64,000 bases of DNA, taken from assembly GCF_000808535.1 (NCBI RefSeq), contig NZ_JWLV01000001.1, positions 124,001 to 188,000 on the forward strand, in the 5' to 3' direction. This document shows positions 18,759 to 22,600 of the stretch, piece by piece. The translations under genes were made by a program, and so were the position numbers. How positions within the stretch are numbered: the stretch's first letter is position 1; each line of letters begins with the position of its first letter. Below the pieces are notes generated by a model, which ran no database searches, was not told where the DNA came from, and was given only the letters and a program-made list of their open reading frames with translations. The stretch is from Vibrio sinaloensis. Lineage in GTDB: Bacteria; Pseudomonadota; Gammaproteobacteria; Enterobacterales; Vibrionaceae.

Positions 18759-19026
18759 ATCAACCTCATCGATTGTTTTTGTTATCGCTAGATAAGAACG
18801 AGTTATCTTGGAAAAAATTTCACTTTCTCATTTGTAGTCATATTAGCGTGCCCAGATCACTGACAAAGGGAGAGCACTGAGAAATTGTTGGCGAATGAAA
18901 AACCGTCTCAGCGTGAAACCAGTATGTAAGCATATGTATGGGATTGTCGTCGAGCGCGATGAATCACAATAAACTCCAAGTCAATGGATTATAAATAATT
19001 TTGATTGGGTTTATTTGAGGGCCGTG

Positions 19027-20205
19027 ATGAAAACAATAACCACAACGCTACTGTTCGCCGCTATGCTAACCGCAGGGTGCAATAGTACAGACAATACGTC
19101 CAAGACAAAGATTGAACCCCATGCTGTTCACGGGGTAAACATCGAGCCAGTTCCAGCGCAGTTTTCTGATTACTCGCGAGCGGGTTACGACCGTTATGTC
19201 GGCGTCAAAGCGCCAAACGGAAAGTCTATTCATATTTTGATCATGGATCGTTTAACTGAGCACCAAATTGTAAAAGCAGTGAATGTACTTAAACACTATC
19301 TGGAGCCTGTGTCTGGGACTGAATTTGGTCGAGCTGTTCAAAAAGCCAAGATAGCCAACACGATGGCTAACAACCACGCCGTGTTAAAGCTGATGAATTA
19401 TCATGATGCGCCCAAGTACAACGATGATCTTGAAGGGCAGCCCTTATTTGAGGAGGAAATTCAGGTAGAGGGGGGTAAGTGGTACGTAAACCAAGATTAC
19501 AACGAACATCGAGATGCGTCATACGAGGAAATTTTGCATCTTGTTCATGATTACGGAATTGGTGTTCACAACTCACCAGAAGAAAACGAAATGGCCTTGC
19601 CTAACTTTGCAAAAAGGTTCAATACGATTCAGCAGAATTCTTTGCACAGTGCCTATAATCCACCAGCCGATATATTAAAAGAGTGGCAAGATGAAGTGAG
19701 TGTTGATCAAGAGTACTTTGCTGCTGTTATCGACAGTTACTATGGTCTTTGGGGGGCTTTCCGAGGGGAAGGTATGTGGGGGATGTATAAAGTGAAAACT
19801 CGACAAGACTTCGATACCTTAGACCCAAATGCAAAGGCTATCACTGAGCAAATATTTGCCAAAACACTCACCTACGATGCCTACATTGACGATTCCTTTA
19901 CAGGCACCTTCAAAATGCGATTTGATGAAAAAGTGCCGTACACTCACCATTCTCAGTACCTAACAAAACTGACGTTGTCTGGAAGTAATGACAGCGACGT
20001 TCAACTTAATCAGTATGACAATATTATTAAAGGTAATTCTGGTGAAAACACGGTTGTCGCTCGTGGGGCGAGGGCTGACTACACCATAGAGCGTGATAGT
20101 GGCGGACAAGTGCGCTTAACAGATACGATTTCTGATCGTGATGGCGCAAACACGCTATCGAATATTGAGAAAATTCAATTCACAGATCAAACCGTGACTT
20201 TGTAG
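19027..20205 (+). CDS. Lipoprotein of unknown function with RTX-like C-terminal tail
   Basis: A 392-residue exported protein with a lipobox at about residues 14-18 (LTAGC), so it is probably membrane-anchored. The central part has no family I can name. It holds EEILHLVHDYGIG (Glu167 to Gly179), which looks like a zincin HExxH helix whose first His is Glu, followed by an aromatic cluster DSYYGLWGAFRGEGMWGMY. The last 80 residues (GSNDSDVQLNQYDNIIKGN, then RADYTIERDSGG and IEKIQFTDQTVTL) resemble the degenerate end of RTX/haemolysin-type calcium-binding repeats, which are usual in secreted rather than lipidated proteins. ATG 19027 has GAGG six bases upstream. Monocistronic. A metallopeptidase-like or pseudo-enzyme role is only a suggestion. 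Confidence 0.7.
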   Translation: MKTITTTLLFAAMLTAGCNSTDNTSKTKIEPHAVHGVNIEPVPAQFSDYSRAGYDRYVGVKAPNGKSIHILIMDRLTEHQIVKAVNVLKHYLEPVSGTEFGRAVQKAKIANTMANNHAVLKLMNYHDAPKYNDDLEGQPLFEEEIQVEGGKWYVNQDYNEHRDASYEEILHLVHDYGIGVHNSPEENEMALPNFAKRFNTIQQNSLHSAYNPPADILKEWQDEVSVDQEYFAAVIDSYYGLWGAFRGEGMWGMYKVKTRQDFDTLDPNAKAITEQIFAKTLTYDAYIDDSFTGTFKMRFDEKVPYTHHSQYLTKLTLSGSNDSDVQLNQYDNIIKGNSGENTVVARGARADYTIERDSGGQVRLTDTISDRDGANTLSNIEKIQFTDQTVTL

Positions 20206-20266: not shown

Positions 20267-21469
20267 TTAGCCAAGTGATGGCAAAAGACCTACAGTGATC
20301 AGCACCTGCGCAAACACGATGACGACACCGATCGCGCTCGTCGCGACAAGCCCCGCATTGCCGCCTCTAACTTGGTAAAGATGTTTAGGCGCGTCAACAC
20401 GAGCTTTTCGCACCATCAAAATTGGTAGGAAAATGGCTAATACAACCAAGGCAATCGCTGCATAGCCAAGTGCCATAATGAATCCTTGTGGGTAAAACAG
20501 CGCAAATCCCATGGGTGGCAGGAAGGTGATTAACCCGGTCATCACGCGAGAGCCGCCATTTGTTTTCTTCTTCAAGGTGTCCCCTAAAAACTCAAACAAA
20601 CCCAAGCTTACGCCAAGAAAAGAGGTCAGCAGCGCAAGATCCGCGAAGATCCCGATGGTTTGGCTGAGGTTAGACTGATGAACGGTTTGAGAGAGTGTTC
20701 CGATCAATGCGCTTAAGCCTTGATTCTCAAGTAACGTTTGTTGGTTTACGACTCCAAGTGTAACCACTTGCCAAAACACGTAAATGATGAGAGGAATGGC
20801 AGAGCCAATGACAATGGCTTTGCGAAGCGATGGAGTGTGTCCGTCTAAGTAGTTTACGATAGCAGGAATACTGCCGTGAAAGCCAAACGAAGTGAAAATG
20901 ACAGGGATTGCAGCGATCACAATGCCTTGCTCGACAGGCATACTTAACAGGTATGACTCAGTCACATTTGGCGCCAAAAACGTCAGCACGAGTGCCATTG
21001 CCACCACTTTTACCAAGAACAAAACACGGTTTACCTTGTCAACGGTTGCTGTGCCAATCGTGACAACGCTTGCCACGATTAGGGTAAAGAGGAGTGTAGA
21101 AGTCGTTGAAGAAACCTCTAGCCCAACAAGCGCTTGAATACGCTCACCAAACTGTGAACCGCCTCCAGCGATGTAAGCAGCACATAGGGCGTAAAACAGG
21201 AACATCATAGCAAAGCTTGCTACCCACTTTCCTTTTTTGCCGAGAAACTGGTTTGCTAACGTATGTAAAGTCGCATCTTGTTCAGCATGCTGGTGGACCT
21301 CAACCATCAATAGCGCGGTATACGCCATCAACGCCCATAGACCTAGCATGATAACGAGTGATGTGGTGAAACCGATGCCTGCCGAAGCAAGAGGAAGGGC
21401 GAGCATGCCTGCGCCAATGGTGGTGCCTGCGATGATCAAAGTACTACCGAAAACCTTTGATTTAGTCAT
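20267..21469 (-). CDS. tyrP: Tyrosine-specific transport protein (HAAAP family)
   Basis: A 400-residue inner-membrane symporter for an aromatic amino acid, closest in motif order to E. coli TyrP. It has about eleven helices. Marks: GSTLIIAGTTIGAGMLALPL near 8-27, LWALMAYTALLMVEV, AIPVIFTSFGFHGSIPAIVN, the loop LRKAIVIGSAIPLIIYVFWQ, and SFLGVSLGLFEFLGDTLKKK. Members import aromatic amino acids with a proton. Upstream lie two or three TyrR-box-like sequences, which supports control by TyrR as in E. coli tyrP. Tryptophan transporters (Mtr, TnaB) are the main alternative. Confidence 0.9.
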   Translation of the reverse strand: MTKSKVFGSTLIIAGTTIGAGMLALPLASAGIGFTTSLVIMLGLWALMAYTALLMVEVHQHAEQDATLHTLANQFLGKKGKWVASFAMMFLFYALCAAYIAGGGSQFGERIQALVGLEVSSTTSTLLFTLIVASVVTIGTATVDKVNRVLFLVKVVAMALVLTFLAPNVTESYLLSMPVEQGIVIAAIPVIFTSFGFHGSIPAIVNYLDGHTPSLRKAIVIGSAIPLIIYVFWQVVTLGVVNQQTLLENQGLSALIGTLSQTVHQSNLSQTIGIFADLALLTSFLGVSLGLFEFLGDTLKKKTNGGSRVMTGLITFLPPMGFALFYPQGFIMALGYAAIALVVLAIFLPILMVRKARVDAPKHLYQVRGGNAGLVATSAIGVVIVFAQVLITVGLLPSLG

Positions 21470-21705: not shown

Positions 21706-21723
21706 CTTTCACGAAACTGTCAT
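21706..21723 (+). promoter_or_regulatory. Pho-box-like direct repeat (candidate PhoB site)
   Basis: CTTTCAC-GAAA-CTGTCAT: two 7-mers 11 bp apart, matching CTGTCA(T/C) at 6 of 7 and 7 of 7, with an AT-rich spacer and ATAA after. It points rightward, about 90 bp before the 40-codon gene. Confidence 0.45.
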
Positions 21724-21746
21724 ATAAGAGGTTTAAAAAGGAACAA

Positions 21747-21785
21747 TAGACCACATATACAAGGTGAGACTTGTAAGCAGGTCTA
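21747..21785 (+). promoter_or_regulatory. Foldable leader of the 40-codon gene
   Basis: TAGACC (21747-21752) pairs with GGTCTA (21780-21785), enclosing ACAAG (21759-21763) with CTTGT (21770-21774). The nested stem lies before the ribosome site at 21800-21807 and could affect translation or mRNA stability. Confidence 0.4.
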
Positions 21786-21812
21786 TAAAGTTGTTTATCA
21801 AAGGAGGTCAGA

Positions 21813-21935
21813 ATGAGTGACCAAACACAAAATGAAGAATGCCTAGAACTGCTAGATGCAATGGAAATTGGCTTCGAGCTTTCAGACTACGAACAGTCAA
21901 TCGAAGCATTAGCAGAAGAAATCTTCAATAAATAA
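21813..21935 (+). CDS. 40-residue acidic small protein
   Basis: An ATG at 21813 with an ideal AAAGGAGGTC ribosome site opens a 40-codon frame ending TAA 21933-21935. The product starts MSDQTQNEECLELLDAMEI and ends LAEEIFNK. It has about eleven acidic residues and only one lysine, no arginine, and looks like one or two amphipathic helices with no membrane segment. Two hairpins follow, the second a likely terminator. A Pho-box-like repeat and a nested stem lie upstream. I do not recognise the family. It could be a small regulator that binds a basic partner, or a translated leader, though no downstream gene in the same transcript depends on it before the terminator. Because the ribosome site is so strong, it is probably made. 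Confidence 0.65.
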   Translation: MSDQTQNEECLELLDAMEIGFELSDYEQSIEALAEEIFNK

Positions 21936-21937
21936 GC

Positions 21938-21996
21938 CTAGGCTCGTGCCTAGCTACCAGAATGAGCCAGTGCAATCGCGCTGGCTTTGTGCTTTT
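21938..21996 (+). terminator. Hairpins after the 40-codon gene
   Basis: First stem CTAGGC (21938-21943), loop TCGT, GCCTAG (21948-21953). Second stem AGCCAGTGC (21965-21973) with GCGCTGGCT (21978-21986, one G-T pair), followed by TTGTGCTTTT, which serves as the terminator. Confidence 0.65.
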
Positions 21997-22027
21997 ATAA
22001 GCCAAGCGATAACAATCTGGGAATCAT

Positions 22028-22600
22028 GTGAACTATCTTGCCCATTTACACATTGCGGATTATTGTCAGTCGAGCCTGTTAGGGAACTTGCTGGGTGATT
22101 TTGTTAAAGGCGATCCGCAAGGGAAATATCAACCGTCCATTGTACAAGGTGTTCGCCTGCATCGCTTCGTAGATGGGTACACTGACAGTCACCCCCTAGT
22201 CAAACAAGCAAAAGGGTTGTTTCCCCAAGGCCCACGCCGATTCTCTGGCATTGCACTCGACATGTTTTGGGACCATTGTCTTGCCCGTGATTGGGACGCT
22301 TTTCACCACCTATCTCTTGAGCTATTTTGTACTCATGCCGAACGCCAAGTTAACGCTACGCAAACCAACTTACCTGAACGATTTGAACGAATTAACGGTT
22401 TGATGTGGGAAGGGCGTTGGTTAGAGTCTTATCAAAGCCTAGACAATATTGGCTACGCATTAGAAAGAATGTCACGTCGTTCGCCACGAATGGGACAATT
22501 AACAGAATGTACTCCCTATTTGGAACAGAATTATAAGCAGCTAAGCCAACTATTTGCCCGCCTATATCCCGATGTACTAACTGCGAGCAAGAGATTCTGA
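22028..22600 (+). CDS. acpH: Acyl carrier protein phosphodiesterase
   Basis: A 190-residue HD-like hydrolase that removes the 4'-phosphopantetheine arm from holo-ACP. Marks: MNYLAHLHIADY, LLGNLLGDFVKGD, VRLHRFVDGYTDSHP with the metal-site HRFVD, and FSGIALDMFWDHCLARDW. Length equals that of E. coli AcpH. The start is GTG 22028 preceded by no strong ribosome site. It ends 35 bases before the RhlE-type helicase gene, so read-through is likely. Confidence 0.92.
   Translation: MNYLAHLHIADYCQSSLLGNLLGDFVKGDPQGKYQPSIVQGVRLHRFVDGYTDSHPLVKQAKGLFPQGPRRFSGIALDMFWDHCLARDWDAFHHLSLELFCTHAERQVNATQTNLPERFERINGLMWEGRWLESYQSLDNIGYALERMSRRSPRMGQLTECTPYLEQNYKQLSQLFARLYPDVLTASKRF

Follow-up and report, generated by a model that had tools for sequence, protein, structure and literature searches.

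In a 64-kb stretch of the Vibrio sinaloensis genome (hereafter the window) we identified a 40-codon gene, conserved in much of the genus Vibrio and preceded by a repeat with the sequence and geometry of a Pho box. We consider it likely that this is an independent PhoB-induced gene and that its product is a helical-hairpin protein docking on a larger partner protein. The original prediction had read the segment 21706-21996 as a direct repeat close to the Pho box (7, 4 and 7 bp), a nested leader stem, a Shine-Dalgarno site, an acidic frame of 40 codons and two hairpins, together making one small gene under phosphate control. Each of these elements is present (Table 1), in the order Pho-box-like repeat, -10-like hexamer, leader stem, Shine-Dalgarno site, 40-codon frame and two hairpins, and the reading as one phosphate-controlled gene is supported by comparison with relatives, through selection on the frame, promoter geometry and compensatory changes in the leader. 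The small gene lies between divergent tyrP (tyrosine permease; 20267-21469, - strand) and acpH, and a gene for an RhlE-like DEAD-box helicase comes after acpH. On the + strand at 19015-20205 the window also carries a 396-codon frame with a lipoprotein-like start and no Pfam match.

Table 1. Features of the small-gene locus (positions in the window).
Feature	Position	Strand	Basis
Pho box CTTTCAC - GAAA - CTGTCAT, 7-bp repeats 11 bp apart	21706-21723	+	12/14 to CTGTCAT-N4-CTGTCAT; with the -10, unique in the window
-10-like hexamer TAAAAA, exactly 10 bp past the Pho box	21734-21739	+	Position common to 40/74 loci
5' leader hairpin ATAGACC...GGTCTAT with inner stem	21746-21786	+	Folding; harveyi-group stem at the equivalent place covaries
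Shine-Dalgarno site AAGGAGGT	21801-21808	+	Sequence; GGAGGTC ahead of ATG recurs in relatives
Possible small hairpin GGUCA/UGACC over the start codon	21806-21822	+	RNAfold; Asp3 codon GAC in 61/61 MSD starts
Small protein gene, 40 codons plus stop, ATG at 21813	21813-21935	+	Homology, pN/pS, AlphaFold2
First post-stop hairpin, 6 bp, 4-nt loop	21938-21953		Folding
Intrinsic-terminator-like hairpin (21964-21987, 10 bp) with U-rich tail	21964-21997	+	Folding; motif CTGGCTTTGTG in relatives
acpH, ACP phosphodiesterase, GTG start	22028-22600	+	PF04336, E 3e-64; near the small gene in 62/74 loci

A peptide search of 61 genomes returned matches in 26 of the 37 genomes of the window's own genus (its own included; E ≤ 0.0013) and, at the E 0.0013 level, none outside that genus. 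When 329 Vibrionaceae genomes were searched with a profile built from 23 homologues, 170 gave a match, and all of these except one belong to the same genus (169); one of the 170 matches (G026, inside a 348-residue frame) is probably due to chance. The 73 named loci are all from Vibrio except one Vibrionales record and one Vibrionaceae record. The gene occurs in a record of V. campbellii, of the harveyi/campbellii group. Of the 26 matches obtained when 394 genomes from across the order were sampled, 25 fell in the genus, the remaining one being weak and containing a stop. A family genome of a different genus (L235) carries a 45-residue frame with the core LEWLDAMEIG, which is probably a true distant relative and suggests that the family extends beyond Vibrio. 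Candidate second copies of the gene in two genomes were rejected as short weak matches only. As far as these samples reach, the gene appears to be essentially confined to Vibrio.

The fate of the frame among relatives, and the balance of synonymous and non-synonymous changes within it, had been named among the checks of the original prediction. The frame is conserved across Vibrio and purifying selection is evident: the 18-codon core gives a pN/pS of 0.13 (860 pairs from 67 distinct DNA cores, limited to pairs with at most 14 differing bases of 54), as against 0.87 and 4.0 when the core is read in the alternative frames, and variation (entropy) is highest at codon position 3 and lowest at position 2. 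The homologues are mutually related rather than independent, so that such counts overstate the evidence. Judged by this comparison, the 40-codon frame is a conserved protein-coding gene under purifying selection in frame. Records of relatives from the plasmid collection were of no help on the gene, the two examined being annotated with 2-3 features each. A literature search of partial coverage turned up nothing on this gene or its core peptide, and no small protein or sRNA linked to PhoB in Vibrio.

Turning to the promoter, two sites in the window (64 kb, both strands) reach 12/14 to the consensus, and only that at 21706 forms a strict promoter, defined as a box of at least 11/14 with a -10-like hexamer starting with TA exactly 10 bp downstream. 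This distance is that of E. coli PhoB promoters. The repeat alone is not rare, the 14-base pattern having 39 matches genome-wide with at most two mismatches versus 15 for the reversed pattern, and the weight therefore rests on spacing and conservation. Within the 220 nt upstream of the gene a box of at least 12/14 occurs in 35 of 74 loci. Dinucleotide shuffling gave no such box in 1480 sequences, and the reversed motif scored as high in 1 of the 74 upstream stretches; the reversed motif reaches 10-11/14 in 28 of the 74, and therefore only higher box scores count. The strict promoter is found in 40 of the 74 loci of relatives. It is lacking in the other 34, with a degraded version in the splendidus group and no such pattern in V. 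mimicus, V. metoecus and several deep branches, and phosphate control is therefore not universal for the small gene. No ordinary sigma-70 promoter was found on the + strand at the small-gene promoter.

The genome encodes one clear PhoB (TIGR02154, above cut-off at 373 bits) and carries two pstB genes. Upstream of the first gene of its own pst operon (pstB on contig 9) stands a box of 11/14 with TATTAT at 10 bp, and upstream of its phoB a box of 10/14, again with a hexamer at 10 bp (AATAAT). At the second pst cluster there are 10/14 sites only, none with a -10 at 10 bp. The likeness to the PhoB promoters of E. coli (pst, phoA and others) lies in CTGTCAT-like 7-bp repeats, 4 bp between them and 11 bp apart, that replace the -35 element, as set out in a passage of PMC3511308, and in the strict, fixed spacing of the Pho box to the core promoter expected from a passage of PMC10294691; the 10-bp distance recurs at the genome's own pst. 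The difference is that the controlled gene here encodes an uncharacterised small protein that is essentially Vibrio-only. Sequence and geometry identify the 21706 repeat as a Pho box, and PhoB would be the activator of the small gene.

For the stretch 21747-21835 the predicted folding energy is -20 kcal/mol (z -2.7), a value matched by 1 of 200 shuffled sequences. Across 60 distinct leaders, each running from the expected start to the ribosome site, the mean folding z was -2.1 with 39 below -1.5, compared with -0.15 and 6 for equal-length stretches upstream of the box; leaders with a box below 10/14, shorter than 25 nt or identical to another were dropped from the 74. Among 11 harveyi-group leaders a 7-bp 5' stem and a 5-bp second hairpin are paired in 129 of 129 cells, a structure derived from the same sequences on which it was tested, which favours pairing. 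In these stems 16 cells changed on both sides versus 5.3 in shuffles, and pairing falls to 21-53% when one arm is slid. Two weaker measures gave less extreme values, with 4 pairs showing a two-sided change (77 of 500 shuffles as high) and 14 further pair types (38 of 500 as high). The covariation counts are those of the harveyi group, the window-clade leaders being poorly aligned by MAFFT; in the latter, stems can be followed by reading as ATAGACC/GGTCTAT, ATAGACT/AGTCTAT and TAGACCC/GGGTCTA. On the strength of the folding scores and of these compensatory changes we regard the 5' leader hairpin as real. In the harveyi leaders (alignment A4, columns 80-95) a GAAGC/GCTTC hairpin before the ribosome site is nearly invariant and the first stem is not; this hairpin may mark a binding site.

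RNAfold also draws a small hairpin over the ATG of the small gene. The Asp3 codon is GAC in all 61 MSD starts, versus 9 of 73 for the conserved D15 and 37% of the Asp codons in the long frames of these loci, and in 46 of 73 cases the ATG is flanked by GGTC on its 5' side and GACC on its 3' side. The start codon is enclosed by at least 4 predicted pairs in 47 of 56 small genes, 26 of 46 acpH genes and 3 of 37 tyrP genes. Taken together, these patterns are no more than suggestive of an RNA constraint near the start codon. A C repeatedly follows the GGAGGT of the ribosome site in relatives.

The stretch 21933-22010, which holds the two hairpins after the gene, folds with z -3.7, which none of 200 shuffled sequences matched. 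On the + strand a terminator-like tail follows the second hairpin, and the first has a terminator score on the - strand only. Moreover, in 29 of 74 loci the motif CTGGCTTTGTG is found past the stop codon. Such an arrangement fits a monocistronic Pho-regulon unit, at least in the window's clade, and in the window acpH is probably a separate unit.

These structures raise the question of whether the unit is mainly a regulatory or dual-function RNA of ~240 nt that also carries the small frame. The covarying 5' stem, the second hairpin, the window-clade terminator, the compact size and the hint of RNA constraint in the Asp3 codon would all suit such an RNA. However, the leader outside the stems is poorly conserved between clades and the protein core is almost invariant, the 64-kb window holds no Rfam match at gathering score, and a start codon within a predicted hairpin is frequent for acpH as well. 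We therefore give this reading little credence. The known Vibrio sRNA srvg23535 was rejected as a candidate, the start printed in a passage of PMC6186989 giving 2 hits in 237 loci, each a long way from the small gene.

The 40-residue product contains 12 Asp/Glu versus 1 Lys/Arg and has no obvious membrane segment by eye. Its conserved core reads ExLExLDA(M/L)EIGxxLSxY, and ten residues are invariant in 64 distinct homologues (M1, L11, E12, L14, D15, A16, E18, I19, G20 and L23); one locus with an ambiguous start (L097) was excluded from this count and from those of start motifs and start hairpins. Homologues differ in both the length and the sequence of the C-terminal third. AlphaFold2 places helices at 4-18 and 23-38 (mean pLDDT 84.7, pTM 0.33), and the protein is thus predicted to be a helical hairpin, two helices joined at the conserved EIG turn, with helix 2 truncated in the harveyi-group homologues. 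The original reader had recognised nothing known in the peptide, and in line with this no convincing family was found in Pfam, NCBIfam, PHROGs or PDB sequences, nor any match to the model by fold comparison with the PDB. Weak matches were obtained to phrog_2623, a phrog of unknown function (19 of 64 members, best E 0.005), and to DUF7364 (13 of 64, best E 0.03).

As to the neighbouring gene, an acpH start lies within ~330 nt downstream in 62 of 74 loci (one acpH-linked locus carrying a variant start motif), with 24-230 nt between the two genes. Together with the wide occurrence of both proteins in the genus, and a resemblance by eye between the core and the acidic recognition helix of ACP, this could point to a small protein acting on AcpH or on its substrate ACP, and so tuning phosphopantetheine removal under phosphate starvation. 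However, 14 of the 170 small-gene genomes are without a PF04336 match, 12 after removal of two doubtful cases, and three more have weak acpH matches only. In V. anguillarum, V. ordalii, V. aestuarianus and others the helicase gene directly follows the small gene, in Vibrio sp. AND4 acpH is reduced to a decayed remnant, and in the mediterranei group acpH is located elsewhere with the small gene still by tyrP. Moreover, seven named loci keep an intact small gene with its strict Pho promoter alongside a missing or decayed acpH. The likeness to ACP helix II is confined to a similar Leu/acidic spacing seen by eye: an ACP mimic was rejected on profile comparison, in which hhalign against 15 distinct ACPs (drawn from 30 loci) scored 9.4, at chance level (null 8.8 ± 2.3, maximum 19.6, from 100 column shuffles). 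We therefore consider an action on AcpH or ACP improbable.

The small gene is probably not an accessory of acpH, given the approximately 12 genomes that retain it without detected acpH; conversely, acpH is present and the small gene undetected in many genomes, both of the genus and of other genera in the family. Each gene thus occurs without the other and the two are not mutually dependent; their shared position looks inherited. Several losses or decays of acpH with the small gene retained can be seen in Vibrio (L060, L074, L092, L093, L096, L097, L100 and L108). That the frame is a leader peptide whose translation, with the hairpins, governs read-through into acpH would agree with its place upstream of acpH, the structured leader and the intergenic hairpins, but is the least credible reading and very improbable, because the conserved part comprises N-terminal and central residues with free synonymous change and no regulatory codon run, tail and spacer lengths vary, and the gene is retained where acpH is absent.

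We therefore return to the independent PhoB-induced gene. At low phosphate, phosphorylated PhoB would bind the box at 21706, which substitutes for a -35 element, and transcription by RNA polymerase would start at approximately 21746, giving a transcript of ~240 nt that comprises the 5' hairpin, a strong ribosome-binding site, the 40-codon frame and the terminator. The 5' hairpin would likely stabilise this transcript. Translation of the frame would yield the short acidic protein, whose N-terminal core (E9 to Y26) may then dock on a larger cellular protein as a starvation regulator. Docking is the most likely mode of action in view of the size, the charge and the block of invariant residues, although conservation of a short frame does not indicate what the protein binds.

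Two known systems, neither of them claimed as homologous, illustrate that proteins of this kind can act by docking when phosphate is short. YtfK of E. coli is described in PMC6917717 as a small SpoT-binding protein needed in phosphate starvation; the analogy is functional only, that of a small starvation protein binding a larger enzyme. The Vibrio protein is shorter and fits no Pfam family. DUF1127 proteins, often below 50 residues, bind PhoR and tune phosphate metabolism by protein contact according to PMC12501420, and are similar in size and proposed contact mode, whereas none of the 64 Vibrio homologues matches the DUF1127 Pfam model at E up to 1.

In summary, ten invariant residues, presence in a large part of the genus and retention despite acpH decay argue for a selected function. 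The unit also illustrates how comparative tests can raise an unassigned 40-codon frame to a well-supported gene. Vibrio live in phosphate-poor water, and the genus includes marine, coral and fish species. The small-protein side of the Vibrio Pho response is little charted in the literature found, and a compact unit whose predicted trigger is clear and for which a bait region is also predicted makes the role quickly testable. A bolder extension, which we hold to be unlikely, is that layered control by the PhoB promoter, the covarying 5' hairpin and the start-codon hairpin meters a docking protein, and that this protein readjusts an enzyme central to phosphate-rich metabolism. Candidate targets would be the turnover of CoA/phosphopantetheine on ACP, the synthesis of (p)ppGpp or the PhoR sensor. 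If this were true, the small protein would be a Vibrio phosphate-starvation effector without counterpart in other bacteria.
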